DNA of 49,124 nt, taken from assembly GCA_902778925.1 (NCBI GenBank), contig CACYZN010000005.1, positions 1-49,124 on the forward strand, read 5' to 3'. The DNA is from an uncultured Bacteroidota bacterium. GTDB lineage: Bacteria > Bacteroidota > Bacteroidia > Bacteroidales > P3. This document shows, one piece after another, positions 28,123 through 33,739 of this stretch. A model generated the notes under the pieces. The model saw only the letters and a list, made by a program, of their open reading frames with translations, had not been told where the DNA came from and ran no database searches. How positions within the stretch are numbered: the first letter of the stretch is position 1; each line of letters opens with the position of its first letter. A program made the position numbers and the translations under genes.

Positions 28123-28130
28123 TATTTTTG
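28123..28130 (+). promoter_or_regulatory. Putative -7 box driving the cobalamin riboswitch transcript
   Basis: TATTTTTG fits TAnnTTTG. It sits immediately before the first paired bases of the riboswitch, so transcription would start at or near the aptamer. The -33 region is a T-rich tract ending at about 28100 without a clean TTG. Confidence 0.55.
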
Positions 28131-28345
28131 CCGCCGATTTGGTCGCCCCGGAAAGGCGATAATAGGGAAGCCGGTGCAAGTCCGGCGCAGTCCCGCTGCT
28201 GTAAGCTCGAAAGTTGAGCCCCAATCTGTTAAGTCACTGTGCGACGCCATAGTCGCATGGGAAGACGGGGAGTTCGCGAGCAAGCCAGAAGACCTGCCAA
28301 ATCTGAGAAATCGGTAACGCTTTCGAGGAAAAAGCCCGCCGGACA
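28131..28345 (+). ncRNA. Cobalamin (B12) riboswitch
   Basis: The conserved core is plain: AATAGGGAAGCCGGTGCAAG (28161-28180), then TCCGGCGCAGTCCCGCTGCT (28181-28200), AAGTCACTG (28231 on), GGGAAGACGGGGAGT and AAGCCAGAAGACCTGCC (28282-28298). The outer stem P1 pairs GATTTGG (28136-28142) with CCAAATC (28297-28303). A rival pairing, CCGATTT (28134-28140) with AAATCGG (28308-28314), uses the same 5' bases and could form the switch. Cobalamin-bound riboswitches normally turn downstream genes off. Here it precedes two secreted surface proteins instead of btuB. Confidence 0.95.
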
Positions 28346-28409
28346 CAACACGAGATGAGCCGCCCCACCGGCCGCCGTGGCTTCCGAATTTCCCCCCGAC
28401 AGCATTGCC

Positions 28410-28450
28410 GATACTGTAAGGAACAATATTAATAAAATAAAAACAGTATC
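28410..28450 (+). promoter_or_regulatory. Hairpin covering the translation start region
   Basis: GATACTGT (28410-28417) and ACAGTATC (28443-28450) form a perfect 8-bp stem around a 25-base AT-rich loop. The 3' arm ends 3 bases before the ATG at 28454. It may be part of the riboswitch expression platform by hiding the initiation region; this is inference. Confidence 0.5.
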
Positions 28451-28453
28451 AAC

Positions 28454-30592
28454 ATGATGAAAAAATTATTGACAATTGTTATGGGCCTCGGCTTGGCATT
28501 CGGAGCCAGCGCCCAGACGGAAAGCACCATTACTGCTTCCGACATCCTCTATTGGGTTGGATCAGGCTCGCAGTCTGCCATCTTTGTGATTGACTACGGC
28601 ACTGGTGCCGTGGCATGGGGCTACCACTTTGACGCATCCGGCAACGAGACAGTCGAGGACATGGCAACGGCAATCTCCGATGCCGACCCCCGCATGTATT
28701 ATGGCTATGGAATGCTCTCCTATGTCGCCTATCCTGCCGACTTCGAGTCTTTCGATGGAGTCTACAGTTTCAAGGTGGATGGTGAGCTCGCCGACTATGA
28801 AGAGACTCTCGGAGACTACGACCTCGAGGACGGCATGCTCGTCAAGGTGTCGGAAAGCACGGATGAAGTGTGGAGCACAACTATTACTCCCGCCACTGTT
28901 ATGGCTACTCCAGTGGATGCCACGATAGCAGCCAGCGCAATCCAATACTGGGTCGGCGAGGGCAGCGATTCACTCGTGTTTGCCGTCAACTGGGGCAACC
29001 CCGACACCGCTTTGGCATGGGGCCTCAAGTTCGATGGTCCGCTGACGATAAGTGGCGCCCTCGCTGCTGTGTGCGCCGCCGATGAGCGCCTTAGCTCCAA
29101 CGATCCCTTCACCACCATCACGTTTGCCAATGGTGACCTGCTTCTTGACTTTGACACAGTCTCGTCCTTCACCAATGTGCCACAGTTTATTCTCAATGGC
29201 AATGGTAATGTCAATGTCGGTACTTCTGTAGAGAATGGAGACTTCTTGAAGATTGGCGAGTCTCACTATGGCTTTGGTTTCGATTCTGTTATGGGATATG
29301 CCATGGGTGTGGTGTGGCCCACCGAGATACACCCTGTCAATGTGCCCGCAGCCGATACTGTGCAGCCCATACACCCCAACGACGCCACAATCGCCGCCGA
29401 CCAGATTCTCTACTGGGTTGGCTCCGGCAACAATAGCGTGATACTCGCCATCAACTGGGCCGACACCGCCCTCGCCTGGGGTTACCGCTTCAGCGACAGT
29501 AGCATCACTGTCGACTCTGTCATGAACGACATCGCTGCCGCCGACCCGCGCTTCTCCTACACCGCCTCCAACGGCTGGCTGTTAGACATCGTGTTCGACA
29601 ACGGCGAGGATAGCCTCCACAATGCTGTCCTGGGCAACTGGATGAGCACCGTCAACGGCAACAGCTCAATTTCGTGGGGTATGTCTTCCAGCCTCACCAA
29701 TGGCGACATCTTCAAGTGGGGTGATATGGCAGCAGCAACCAACTTCGACAGCATTTACGTGGTAGATAGCGCCTATGGCAACTACTGGATGTTCAGTAGC
29801 GTCTTCACCGCCGAGGTGCACCCCGTCAGCGTGCCCGACACCGTGCAGCCTCAGCCCGTACATCCCGTTGATGCCACCATCGCTGCCGACCAGATTCTCT
29901 ACTGGGTTGGCTCCGGCAACAATAGCGTGATATTCGCTGTCAACTGGGCCGACACCGCCCTCGCCTGGGGTTACCGCTTCAGCGACAGCAGCATCACCGT
30001 CGACTCTGTCATGAACGACATTGCTGCCGCCGACCCGCGCTTCTCCTACACCGCCTCCAACGGCTGGCTGTTAGACATCGTGTTCGACAATGGCGAGGAT
30101 AGCCTCCATAATGCTGTCCTGGGCAACTGGATGAGCACCGTCAACGGCAATAGCTCGATTTCGTGGGGTATGTCTTCCAGCCTCGCCAACGGCGACATCT
30201 TCAAGTGGGGTGATATGGCTGTGGCCACCAACTTCGACAGCATTTACGTAGAGGATAGCGCCTACGGCAACTACTGGATGTTCAGCAGCGTCTTCACCAC
30301 CGAGGTGCACCCCGTCAGCGTGCCCGACACCACCCATGAGGGTATCTCCACTGTGGCCGATGTCGAGGTCAGCGTATATCCCAATCCTGCTACCGAATGG
30401 GTCAACGTCCGCTTCGACGCCCTCGGCAATGACACTGAGGCCGCCATGTACGACCTGAATGGCCGTCGCCTGTTTGTGCGCACCATTGAGGCCGGCGCCA
30501 CCGGTATGCGCATTGACACCAACGCCATGCCCAACGGTATCTACATGCTCCGCATTGGCGCAGCTTCGGCCAAGGTCGTAGTACGCCACTAA
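28454..30592 (+). CDS. B12-riboswitch-controlled T9SS surface protein with four repeated modules
   Basis: The 712-residue protein has a signal peptide (MMKKLLTIVMGLGLAFGASAQ), four modules of about 130-163 residues (roughly 22-153, 155-308, 309-471, 472-633) and a T9SS type A sorting domain (VSVYPNPATEWVNV ... NGIYMLRIGAA). Each module starts ILYWVGSGSxS-like, then has a strand such as AINWADTALAWGYRF, a helix with DxxxxDIAAADPRF, and, late in the module, a VNG or VDG followed by GDxFKWG or DGMLVKV. This order (DxL helix, W/Y...VNG, xxGDxVxW) resembles the transcobalamin-like DUF4430 fold. Modules 3 and 4 are nearly identical at DNA level. Together with the riboswitch this points to corrinoid capture at the cell surface; direct proof is lacking. 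The next gene follows 13 bp later. Confidence 0.85.
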   Translation: MMKKLLTIVMGLGLAFGASAQTESTITASDILYWVGSGSQSAIFVIDYGTGAVAWGYHFDASGNETVEDMATAISDADPRMYYGYGMLSYVAYPADFESFDGVYSFKVDGELADYEETLGDYDLEDGMLVKVSESTDEVWSTTITPATVMATPVDATIAASAIQYWVGEGSDSLVFAVNWGNPDTALAWGLKFDGPLTISGALAAVCAADERLSSNDPFTTITFANGDLLLDFDTVSSFTNVPQFILNGNGNVNVGTSVENGDFLKIGESHYGFGFDSVMGYAMGVVWPTEIHPVNVPAADTVQPIHPNDATIAADQILYWVGSGNNSVILAINWADTALAWGYRFSDSSITVDSVMNDIAAADPRFSYTASNGWLLDIVFDNGEDSLHNAVLGNWMSTVNGNSSISWGMSSSLTNGDIFKWGDMAAATNFDSIYVVDSAYGNYWMFSSVFTAEVHPVSVPDTVQPQPVHPVDATIAADQILYWVGSGNNSVIFAVNWADTALAWGYRFSDSSITVDSVMNDIAAADPRFSYTASNGWLLDIVFDNGEDSLHNAVLGNWMSTVNGNSSISWGMSSSLANGDIFKWGDMAVATNFDSIYVEDSAYGNYWMFSSVFTTEVHPVSVPDTTHEGISTVADVEVSVYPNPATEWVNVRFDALGNDTEAAMYDLNGRRLFVRTIEAGATGMRIDTNAMPNGIYMLRIGAASAKVVVRH
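29381..30331 (+). repeat. Near-identical tandem duplication of a 489-bp module
   Basis: The stretch 29381-29842 reappears at 29870-30331, with a constant offset of 489 bp (163 codons) and only scattered substitutions by eye. It corresponds to modules 3 and 4 of the surface protein. The other modules are much more diverged, so this duplication is recent or kept uniform by gene conversion. Confidence 0.9.
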
Positions 30593-30605
30593 TCACATTA
30601 CGAAA

Positions 30606-33600
30606 ATGAAATTACGCATTTCTGTATTGGCCTTGCTCCTGTGCGGCGTTATGTCGGCACAGGGGCAAGCCCCTTTATATGACTACCCCTTCCCGGAGAG
30701 CAATGTGCTTTTCTGGGCGGGAAGTGGCTCGAACAGCGCCGTGGTCAACATCGACTTCGACGGTACATGTCTTATCTACGGTGTCCATTGGAACGGCAGC
30801 CTCAAGGTTGACGACATCATGGACACAATCAACACCTATGACCCGCGTATTACGATGGATGGCATCTCGGACTGTTATATCAGTTCGATGGAGTATAACG
30901 ATGCCGAAACAGGCGACGTCTACACAGAATTGGGTATGGGTTGGGTGTACATGGTGAATGGAGTGATGGCTAGCGCTATCTGCTCTCAGAGTATTGCCGA
31001 CGGCGATTATGTCCATTTCAGCGACAATTTCGAGTACCCGACAGATACCTATGTCTTTGTGACGGTGCCGCAGGGTGGCGACACTCCTGGCAATGAATTG
31101 CCCATTACCGCCGACGACATCCTTTACTGGGTAGGCTCCGGAGCTGGCAGCTCCATCGTGGCCATCTCGTGGGACGAGGAAGAAACGGCCCTTGCCTGGG
31201 GCGTGCGCTACGACGACGAATACTATCCATCGGTCATCGACCTGCTGGATACGATCGATAGCTACGACCCCCGTTTTGACTATTATGTGAGCTATTACAT
31301 GAGCACCCCATACATTATCAGCTCAATCACCTTCACCGAGGGTGACATCAGTCTTTCGCAGACCAACACCTCGAATATACAGGTGAGGGTTATCACAGCA
31401 GACGGTGAAGTTGATGGTGTGAGTGGCAGCGAATTGGAGGACTATAGCATCTGGGATGGCGACTTTGTGGAGATTTCCACCAGTGGCCTATTTGATTTCA
31501 ATGAGGTAGAAGCCGTAGAGCCGCCGGCAGTAACGCCTGACCCCGAAGAGCCCGACACATTGTGCAACGTGGCGCATACATTGCCCTATTTCATGGATTT
31601 CTCGGGTTACACGAGTGACCAAAGTGTTCGACCTTACGATGCAGGTGCCCCGGTGCCTGAATGCTGGAGTCTTTATGGTAATGGCCGGTTTACGCAAGAC
31701 TATGATACTGCCACTACGGCTTCCATATACTTTGGTGGTATCGGCTATGCCACATCGACCAATAGCTTCGGCTGTATGGAGGTTGGCAATCCTTTCCTTG
31801 CGCTAATTGCTTGTCAAGACTATGATGGCACCTATGCAAATGCTATCGCCAATGTGCATAAATATGGTACCAAGCGCTTTGCCGTCCTGCCGTTGTTCGA
31901 CCAGCCACTTGGACAGACTGTACTTACGTTCAACCATCGCAGCACTGCACATGAAGGTTCTGCACTATTTATGGTGGGTTATATTGTAACTGACACAGCC
32001 GATTTCGTGGTGGTCGACTCTATCCCTGTAGACTATCGTGTGACGCATGACGATACAGTTCGGTTCAGCCAGTTTGCCGATATTCCTGCCGATGCACGTC
32101 TTACCCTTCTTTGGCAGAGCATCGATACGGCTCATCAGAACGATTATCCCTCCAACTACTACTGTGGTATTGACAATATCATGGTTGTACTCGACAGCAC
32201 GGCCGTGGCTCCCGACACCTCGGTGACACCGGATCCGCAACCCGAGCTTCCCGAAGAAGCCTCCATTGCCGCAGATGATATCTTGTTCTGGATTGGCGAA
32301 GGCGAAAATCATGTTGTTATGGCCGTCAATTGGGCTGATACAGCACTGGCTTGGGGATACCGTTTCTCGACCGATAGCGTCTCCTCGGCAACGGTGTTGA
32401 ATGATATTGCCGCCGCCGATCAACGCCTCAGTTGTATTGCATCGGGAATGCTTTCCGACATCAACTATATAGACACCGCCACAGGAATGGTCGACACCTT
32501 GGGTATCACAGCAGGCAACTACTGGAGCAGCTTGAGGAATGGTACCTATGACGGCGGTTTGCCTCAGATGCTTGGAACAGGCGATTTCAAGAAGTGGGCT
32601 GACCCAGCTGCAGGTTTTGCGGTCGACAGCAGCTATTATGAAGGTTATGGCTGGATGTATACCCATGTTTTCCCGATGGCGATCCATGCCGTCTCGGTGC
32701 CGGATACAGCAAGTGACGAGCCTGAACCTGAACCGGAACAAGGGCCGTTCTGCGGCGCTGTCGGTACAGAGGGCTGTAATGCCATCCGTGTTGACAGCAG
32801 TGCTATAGTGGCATGGGCCACGGGTTGTAGCCTCGAGCGCGGACCAATCAGGATTGATGCTGCTGCCCAAGTTGCGGCTTCGTTTGGTGACAGTACCCAG
32901 GCTATAGGTCCTGCCACTGTCAATACGTCCACCAATGCTGTGAGCCTTGGCGACGGTGGTACTGCAACGTTGACCTTTGCCCATCCGATTCGTAATGGTG
33001 AAGGTCCCGATTTCGCAGTGTTCGAGAATGGCATTGTCAGCAATGTTACGGGCAATGCATTCCTTGAGTTGGCCTTTGTGGAGGTGAGTAGCGACGGCGA
33101 GCGTTTTGTACGCTTCCCTGCCACATCGCTTACTCCTACGGAAACACAGATGGGCTCCTTTGGCGAGGTTGACCCCACTATGATTAACAATTTGGCTGGC
33201 AAATACCAGATTGGATATGGTACCCCGTTCGACTTGGAGGAGCTGCGCGACAGTGTCGGCATTGATATCGACAATATAGTGTTTGTTCGCGTAGTAGATG
33301 TAGTGGGTACCATTAACCAGCAGTATGCCACATACGACGCTTTCGGCCATATTGTCAATGACCCGTTTCCCACGCCGTTCAACAGCTCTGGCTTTGACCT
33401 TACCGGTGTTGCGGTGATGTACGAGAATACCGATACGTCCAGCCATTCATCCATCGTCGAAGCCCGGGCGGCAACGCTGTCGGTATATCCTAATCCTGCT
33501 GTCGATCGTGTTGCGGTGCTGTCGACCGTGGCTGGAGATGGCGAGGTGCTGGATATTCGTGGTTGCCGTAGAATGGAGGTTCGCCTGCGTGAAGGCAGCA

Positions 33601-33686
33601 ACATAGTGGACCTCTCAGGTCTGCCGCAGGGTGTATATATGCTGCGTGTGGATGGAGCAGCCTGCAAGATTGTGAAGAAGAAGTAA
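30606..33686 (+). CDS. Second T9SS surface protein of the B12-riboswitch operon, multi-domain
   Basis: The 1026-residue protein has a signal peptide (MKLRISVLALLLCGVMSAQG). Visible parts in order: module 1 (about 25-157; VLFWAGSGSNSAVVNIDFDG, GWVYMVNGVMAS, IADGDYVHF); module 2 (163-305; ILYWVGSGAGSSIVAISW); a beta-sandwich, lectin-like stretch (320-535; LPYFMDFSGYTSD, CGIDNIMVVLDS); module 3 (550-700; ILFWIGEGENHVVMAVNW, ALAWGYRF); a domain with PDFAVFENGI, FLELAFVEVSSDG and YATYDAFGHIVNDPFPTPF (about 715-940); and a T9SS sorting domain (LSVYPNPAVDRVAV ... GVYMLRVDG). The modules match those of the preceding gene. The FAVFENG domain is one I recall from surface proteins in B12-regulated loci of other bacteria. 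Predicted role: surface corrinoid binding. Confidence 0.85.
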   Translation: MKLRISVLALLLCGVMSAQGQAPLYDYPFPESNVLFWAGSGSNSAVVNIDFDGTCLIYGVHWNGSLKVDDIMDTINTYDPRITMDGISDCYISSMEYNDAETGDVYTELGMGWVYMVNGVMASAICSQSIADGDYVHFSDNFEYPTDTYVFVTVPQGGDTPGNELPITADDILYWVGSGAGSSIVAISWDEEETALAWGVRYDDEYYPSVIDLLDTIDSYDPRFDYYVSYYMSTPYIISSITFTEGDISLSQTNTSNIQVRVITADGEVDGVSGSELEDYSIWDGDFVEISTSGLFDFNEVEAVEPPAVTPDPEEPDTLCNVAHTLPYFMDFSGYTSDQSVRPYDAGAPVPECWSLYGNGRFTQDYDTATTASIYFGGIGYATSTNSFGCMEVGNPFLALIACQDYDGTYANAIANVHKYGTKRFAVLPLFDQPLGQTVLTFNHRSTAHEGSALFMVGYIVTDTADFVVVDSIPVDYRVTHDDTVRFSQFADIPADARLTLLWQSIDTAHQNDYPSNYYCGIDNIMVVLDSTAVAPDTSVTPDPQPELPEEASIAADDILFWIGEGENHVVMAVNWADTALAWGYRFSTDSVSSATVLNDIAAADQRLSCIASGMLSDINYIDTATGMVDTLGITAGNYWSSLRNGTYDGGLPQMLGTGDFKKWADPAAGFAVDSSYYEGYGWMYTHVFPMAIHAVSVPDTASDEPEPEPEQGPFCGAVGTEGCNAIRVDSSAIVAWATGCSLERGPIRIDAAAQVAASFGDSTQAIGPATVNTSTNAVSLGDGGTATLTFAHPIRNGEGPDFAVFENGIVSNVTGNAFLELAFVEVSSDGERFVRFPATSLTPTETQMGSFGEVDPTMINNLAGKYQIGYGTPFDLEELRDSVGIDIDNIVFVRVVDVVGTINQQYATYDAFGHIVNDPFPTPFNSSGFDLTGVAVMYENTDTSSHSSIVEARAATLSVYPNPAVDRVAVLSTVAGDGEVLDIRGCRRMEVRLREGSNIVDLSGLPQGVYMLRVDGAACKIVKKK

Positions 33687-33710
33687 TAGTTATTTAAGTT
33701 TATTATGAAT

Positions 33711-33739
33711 GGAGCGGCCCGCCGAAGGCGGGCCGCTCC
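33711..33739. terminator. Bidirectional terminator between the B12 operon and fabG
   Basis: A perfect 13-bp stem (GGAGCGGCCCGCC at 33711-33723, complement at 33727-33739) with loop GAA. It is 25 bp after the B12 operon stop and 27 bp after the fabG stop on the other strand. Confidence 0.85.

Follow-up and report, generated by a model that had tools for sequence, protein, structure and literature searches.

A cobalamin riboswitch precedes two genes for T9SS-tailed proteins with tandem DUF4430-like modules in a Bacteroidales bacterium: a probable corrinoid-capture system

Introduction

Riboswitch-controlled extracellular capture of corrinoids is already known, as is the DUF4430 domain as a predicted binder of B12. 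Here we describe a two-gene operon behind a cobalamin riboswitch in DNA from an uncultured member of the Bacteroidales (assembly GCA_902778925.1, contig CACYZN010000005.1, positions 1 to 49,124; this whole stretch of 49,124 nucleotides is referred to as the window). Its two proteins consist of a repeated module (M), the domains J and H, and tails for the type IX secretion system (T9SS), and we consider them a probable corrinoid-capture system. What is new is the delivery by the T9SS, the tandem arrays, and the H domain: among the titles and abstracts listed by searches of the open PMC literature, which does not cover subscription journals or preprints, we found no description of T9SS-exported B12 binders or of tandem DUF4430 arrays.

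The DUF4430/transcobalamin-like clade of the SLBB beta-grasp superfamily (PMC1796856) has the same order of fold elements as the window's modules and comprises extracellular multi-domain proteins predicted to scavenge B12; close relatives of the window's modules share its Pfam membership. The fusions described for that clade are with Gram-positive anchors and with toroid, immunoglobulin (Ig), FIVAR, fasciclin and propeller domains, whereas we find tandem arrays, T9SS tails and a riboswitch in Bacteroidales. BtuH (BtuH2, 7biz; PMC8941943) is likewise a riboswitch-controlled, modular surface accessory protein with a single conserved C-terminal domain beside its anchor, and it has a short local profile similarity to H; it differs in being lipidated, where the present proteins carry a T9SS tail, and H was not retrieved with it by profile search. 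BtuJ, a DUF4465 protein (PMC12751083, PMC13398666), captures cobamides from the same kind of operon, and relatives of it are fused to H and a T9SS tail; however, its fold is unrelated to that of M, profile comparison relates it to neither H nor J, and in B. theta these proteins are lipoproteins. Finally, the BtuB-BtuG complex (PMC10404256) is the probable recipient of the corrinoid, and in other families its two genes lie next to those for H and M, but they are absent at this locus, and the genome's candidate receptor lies on another contig with no detected riboswitch.

Results

Architecture of the operon

The features of the operon are as follows (window positions; E, expectation value).

28123-28315, + strand: cobalamin riboswitch aptamer RF00174, 119.7 bits (gathering threshold 31.5), model positions 1-189 of 189
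28123-28130, + strand: putative promoter -7 element TATTTTTG, fitting TAnnTTTG and abutting the aptamer
28316-28453, + strand: leader from aptamer to start codon, fold -32.6 kcal/mol, z -2.18
28454-30592, + strand: protein 1, 712 residues; signal peptide, four M modules, T9SS sorting domain
28514-28894, + strand: M module 1, profile E 1.2e-36
28910-29344, + strand: M module 2, profile E 1.3e-44
29375-29833, + strand: M module 3, profile E 1.5e-52; the module modelled with AlphaFold2 (predicted local distance difference test, pLDDT, 90.8)
29864-30322, + strand: M module 4, identical to module 3 at 95% of protein and 93.9% of DNA positions
30374-30577, + strand: T9SS type A sorting domain of protein 1, PF18962, 40.5 bits
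30606-33686, + strand: protein 2, 1026 residues; signal peptide, M-M-J-M-H, T9SS sorting domain
30678-31052, + strand: M module 5; alone among the window's modules it matches DUF4430, below threshold
31095-31493, + strand: M module 6, profile E 2.4e-37
about 31569-32192, + strand: J domain, beta-rich, not DUF4465 by profile comparison
32250-32699, + strand: M module 7, profile E 1.3e-47
about 32739-33419, + strand: H domain, conserved, without a Pfam family
33483-33680, + strand: T9SS type A sorting domain of protein 2, PF18962, 29.9 bits
33711-33739, + strand: terminator-like hairpin, 13-bp stem with 12 G-C pairs, 3-nt loop, tail TGTTGTATAT

A first-pass annotation, made from the sequence alone, had described a full cobalamin riboswitch, two genes 13 bp apart that encode signal peptides, seven copies of one module type, T9SS sorting domains, and a closing terminator, and all of these were borne out. 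The aptamer is full-length, lies far over its gathering threshold, and is the sole Rfam match in the window at gathering thresholds. The gene coordinates and the 13-bp gap were confirmed; the N-termini of both proteins, inspected by eye, resemble Sec signal peptides and lack the lipobox cysteine of surface lipoproteins of the Btu type. The motif W[VAI]G[SE]G recurs at residues 34, 166, 321 and 484 of protein 1 and at residues 37, 175 and 562 of protein 2, and a single M profile, built from the seven window modules and ten relatives, detects all seven (E 1.2e-36 to 2.0e-53), four in protein 1 and three in protein 2. The annotation's picture of the modules was nevertheless incomplete, in that J and H of protein 2 had been overlooked. 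The identity of modules 3 and 4 indicates a recent duplication. With the same profile, no further M copies were found at E ≤ 1e-6 in the 2.2-Mb, 93% complete genome.

The sorting domains of both proteins exceed the PF18962 cut-off of 27 bits as well as the cut-off of TIGR04183, and the genome encodes SprA of the type IX system (SprA_N, 545.7 bits); both proteins thus combine the sorting domain of T9SS type A cargo with a translocon in the same genome. Among the 46 module proteins at the genus-level loci, 45 carry the tail, and the remaining one is truncated at a contig end. Elsewhere in the window, another protein (715-1935, - strand) has a T9SS-like tail slightly under the cut-off (26.6 versus 27 bits).

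The match at 28123-28130 to TAnnTTTG, which we take to be the Bacteroidota -7 promoter consensus, was judged by sequence alone. Of 200 shuffled versions of the leader, 7 fold as stably as the original, which can form an 8-bp stem (28410-28417 paired with 28443-28450) ending 3 nt 5' of the ATG. Control of translation start is therefore possible, as the modelled fold would suggest; a hairpin scan of the leader found no terminator-like site. The terminator scan returned 4 such sites where shuffled sequence gave a mean of 4.2; what stands out about the hairpin at 33711-33739 is only the length of its stem.

The M module is a divergent DUF4430 domain by sequence

The first-pass annotation had called the modules DUF4430-like, and as far as sequence can settle kinship they are divergent DUF4430 domains, i.e., relatives of the C-terminal beta-grasp domain of transcobalamin. 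The comparison with PF14478 (DUF4430) that it had proposed came out in favor for relatives of the window's modules, which pass the cut-off of 23.8 bits, but not for those modules themselves. When the whole proteins were scanned with Pfam, module 5 matched PF14478 at E 0.024 (15.5 bits), and the other six modules were unmatched at E ≤ 10. Two relatives, both encoded downstream of a cobalamin riboswitch, are over the cut-off, with 47.7 bits across two modules (L165) and 73.2 bits across three (L166). Among 198 Bacteroidales genomes, PF14478 was over its cut-off in six; in one of these (G137) its two matches are M modules, which score 29.1 and 28.2 bits when taken singly. More broadly, 29 of 108 modules, a set thinned from 198 modules longer than 100 residues, match PF14478 at E ≤ 0.1 (best 1.4e-9), while the next family matches 2 of 108. 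When 107 modules were compared by hhalign with DUF4430 sequences, five in number and all from Bacteroidales, the result was 81% across 91 columns, against at most 1.4% for 30 column-shuffles, 0.2% for a reversed alignment, 0.2% for H, 0.1% for BtuH, and 0.9% for DUF4465.

The AlphaFold2 model of module 3, computed from 17 sequences taken from the window, L012 and L013 (pLDDT 90.8; predicted template modelling score, pTM, 0.86), has the order strand 20-27, strand 32-39, helix 46-56, and a hairpin of strands 60-65 and 68-75 directly after the helix. Such a hairpin is the mark of the transcobalamin-like clade (Burroughs et al., PMC1796856). Matched by its secondary-structure description, the predicted fold of M would thus carry the hairpin of that clade. 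When the model was searched with Foldseek, the highest probabilities among 50 of the 199 matches belonged to 3u7z (0.97, and 0.91 for chain B), which is presumably a DUF4430 protein, to chain C of the transcobalamin complex TC:CD320 (0.92), and to intrinsic factor (0.66). A structural comparison of this kind had also been proposed at first pass, and transcobalamin is indeed among its top probabilities.

The operon belongs to a cobalamin riboswitch regulon

Protein 1 has a match in each of the 36 same-genus genomes searched (matches to the sorting tail included), and a module gene was obtained from each. We examined 41 module genes at 40 hand-chosen loci from 38 genomes, i.e., these 36 together with G037 and G049, and found a cobalamin riboswitch on the same strand no more than 2 kb upstream of 33. 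This number includes L063, which was counted by hand because its stop-to-stop frame runs through the riboswitch and so falls outside the script's count of 32 genes. Two further genes have the riboswitch about 3.1 and 3.2 kb upstream, contig ends truncate five others, and for the last (L084) no upstream cobalamin riboswitch is among the matches listed. As the matches listed give one to six cobalamin riboswitches per genome of 2-3 Mb, chance adjacency to module genes would be rare. The operon is therefore part of a cobalamin riboswitch regulon conserved in the genus and beyond, and the riboswitch control proposed at first pass stands in the sense of regulon membership. H lies in the same protein for 34 of the 46 module proteins, and an H gene lies in the same locus for 9 of the other 12.

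Across the order, M was found in 34 of 295 sampled Bacteroidales genomes (E ≤ 1e-6) and H in 84 of them (E ≤ 1e-10). The two co-occur in 22 genomes; H is thus present in 22 of the 34 genomes with M, against 84 among all 295 (Fisher 3e-6, phylogeny ignored). A cobalamin riboswitch lies just upstream in 14 of the 20 M loci scanned, a subset of 30 fetched from other families; as several of these genomes are close kin, the riboswitch counts there are not independent. For H, 20 loci were hand-picked from the 84 genomes, four of them for a known nearby riboswitch, and one (L125) was left unscanned: a same-strand upstream riboswitch was present in 15 of the 19 scanned, or in 11 of 15 once the four preselected loci are set aside.

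Gene order in other families and the candidate receptor

In other Bacteroidales families the same domains adjoin genes for a TonB receptor and a DUF5074 (BtuG-type) protein. At L119 the order is riboswitch, M protein with a first half that looks propeller-like by eye, H, TonB receptor (PF00593, 126.8 bits), and DUF5074 propeller (84.7 bits); receptor-like and propeller-like open reading frames other than those of L119, as well as mutase-like genes, were named by eye. At L115, L123 and L134, proteins with a T9SS tail join H to DUF4465, the domain of BtuJ, and a DUF4465 protein is encoded by the gene next to H at L127 and L132. The L156 locus (genome G059) combines a riboswitch, receptor-like and propeller-like genes, a true BtuH (8blw, E 9.5e-98; 7biz, E 1.3e-59), and an M protein of 1452 residues with a T9SS tail slightly under the cut-off (22.4 versus 23 bits). 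By eye, that BtuH (4241-9763 of L156 spans it and the M-module protein that follows) has an apparent T9SS tail in place of a lipobox. Choice-of-anchor J and J-type domains occur in some relatives. In two riboswitch-linked receptor operons (L142, L143) the genes that follow encode a DUF5074-like protein and two small, paralogous proteins resembling outer-membrane barrels.

Four of the five DUF4430 proteins in the 198 genomes that are not M proteins adjoin cobamide genes, namely CobU and CobT-type genes (L194), a CobQ-type gene (L195), a DUF5074 gene (L196), and genes that look cob-like by eye (L192); the fifth (L193) has no cobamide neighbor in the stretch available. The four are single-domain proteins of about 135-150 residues beside cobamide salvage or BtuG-type genes. 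Single-domain DUF4430 proteins of the Bacteroidales may be small corrinoid carriers.

The present genome contains three cobalamin riboswitches and two proteins with B12-binding domains of the kind found in B12-dependent enzymes. The other two riboswitches (L014 6149-6340, L015 6124-6307) precede genes that by eye are acyl-CoA transferase-like and NrdD-like (anaerobic ribonucleotide reductase-like). The first-pass annotation had noted the lack of a TonB receptor alongside the pair, which holds at the locus itself but not more widely: a BtuB-like receptor gene lies on contig 12 (49191-51161), and receptors are adjacent in other Bacteroidales families. The contig 12 receptor is 24% identical to that of L131 (E 1.5e-13), and its best NCBIfam model is a B12 receptor, although its 94 bits are far below the cut-off of 599.7. 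A gene that looks propeller-like by eye lies 3' of it, at which DUF5074 was unmatched, and no riboswitch was detected at this locus; G007 and G023, in contrast, each carry a riboswitch at the corresponding place. On contig 12 the receptor and propeller-like genes follow ftsY- and rimO-like genes (L141 6084-9223).

The H and J domains

H has no Pfam family among 27 members compared, none of which matches DUF4430. A profile search of solved-structure sequences with H returned no BtuH chain at E ≤ 10, although BtuH chains are present in that library; by hhalign, H aligns with BtuH at 60.9% over 41 columns and 67.7% over 56, but at 2.7% globally. The AlphaFold2 model of H, made from four sequences, reached a pLDDT of 32.9. 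Its genomic context makes H a candidate B12-binding domain. We considered J as a diverged DUF4465 domain and rejected this on profile comparison (hhalign 0.1%). Compared with DUF4465 in the same way, H gives 0.1% and M 0.9%, and PF14717 was unmatched in the window's proteins at E ≤ 10, which sets them apart from BtuJ.

Discussion

We think it probable that the two proteins form a T9SS-exported corrinoid-capture layer that feeds a BtuB-type receptor, encoded by a two-gene operon under riboswitch repression. When internal corrinoid is plentiful, the riboswitch would repress the operon; when it is short, both proteins would be made, exported by Sec, and carried across the outer membrane by the type IX system, to be attached to the surface or shed from it. 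The tandem M modules, and probably also the single H, would then bind corrinoids outside the cell, the multivalent M arrays presumably holding several at once to the benefit of the cell, and the captured corrinoid would be handed to the BtuB-type TonB receptor encoded elsewhere. We infer that M, and probably H, binds corrinoids. Isolated human TC-beta binds cobalamin (PMC5599065), and BtuH has been proposed as a surface capture protein that works apart from the receptor (PMC10404256).

More tentatively, and with the balance tipping against it, we suggest a T9SS-dependent "corrinophore" in which (i) each M module binds a corrinoid alone, giving one to eight sites per protein, (ii) the proteins are displayed or shed under cobalamin starvation, and (iii) H is an undescribed B12-binding domain spread through the Bacteroidales. 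Such a system, if true, would operate in parallel with the lipoprotein-based and vesicle-borne systems of Bacteroides.

Several observations weigh against corrinoid capture by transcobalamin-like modules. All of the window's own modules are below the DUF4430 cut-off of 23.8 bits. The Foldseek E-values for the M model are all above 0.05, and other chains that contain a beta-grasp (clostridial translocation components) appear at probabilities up to 0.54, so that Foldseek taken alone is suggestive only. Searches of solved-structure sequences with the M profile, which gave chance-level matches only, and with four DUF4430 proteins retrieved neither transcobalamin, nor intrinsic factor, nor 3u7z, and L166 returned only T9SS-tail and chance matches; the link to vertebrate transcobalamin therefore rests on the Pfam family and the fold. 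The alpha-toroid domain of transcobalamin also contacts B12, and no such domain was seen in this system. Moreover, relatives may lose binding, as BtuK2 does not bind although BtuK1 does (PMC12751083), and, as the reviewers of PMC1796856 cautioned, members of the clade may have ligands other than B12.

Among the alternatives, the one that survives best, although we hold it to be unlikely, is that only H binds corrinoid and that M is a stalk or spacer holding H off the surface, like the PKD domains of BtuH2. H is present once per protein in all 42 H proteins of the genus-level loci, whereas M varies from one to eight copies; H is also the most conserved part of these proteins, with a mean column identity of 59% compared with 30% for the M family, and Ig-like PKD spacers precede the binding domain in BtuH2 (PMC8941943). 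Against a mere stalk, some cobalamin riboswitches precede genes for M-only proteins, H being encoded by a gene of its own (e.g., L131), M is kin to DUF4430, whose single-domain members sit in cobamide loci, and H is itself only a candidate binder.

Somewhat less likely still is that the proteins bind another ligand (cobinamide or another corrinoid precursor, some other tetrapyrrole, or a polysaccharide) and that their link to B12 status is one of co-regulation only. The ligands of the beta-grasp superfamily are varied, as the authors of PMC1796856 concede, and the J-type and choice-of-anchor J domains of some relatives look adhesin-like; yet the regulon is specifically one of cobalamin, and the neighbors in other families are DUF4465, BtuH, TonB-receptor and DUF5074 genes, several kin of which bind cobalamin (PMC12751083, PMC13398666). 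That M resembles DUF4430 by chance and has a generic beta-rich repeat fold is very improbable and largely refuted: the sub-threshold scores of the window's modules and the non-significant Foldseek E-values would fit it, but L165 and L166, which belong to the same family, score two to three times the curated cut-off, the hhalign match covers its 91 columns and the controls stay clean, and the model shows the hairpin of the clade.

If corrinoid capture by the T9SS-exported layer is true, kin of the animal B12 carrier domain would serve as tandem extracellular nets in gut-type Bacteroidales, by a secretion route that differs from that of the known lipoprotein systems. One module of 150 residues together with cobalamin would allow a simple test of whether bacterial transcobalamin-like domains scavenge B12, as was predicted in 2007. 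The finding would also name a probable function for DUF4430 in the Bacteroidales, and would make H a candidate new B12-binding domain in 84 of the 295 sampled genomes of the order.

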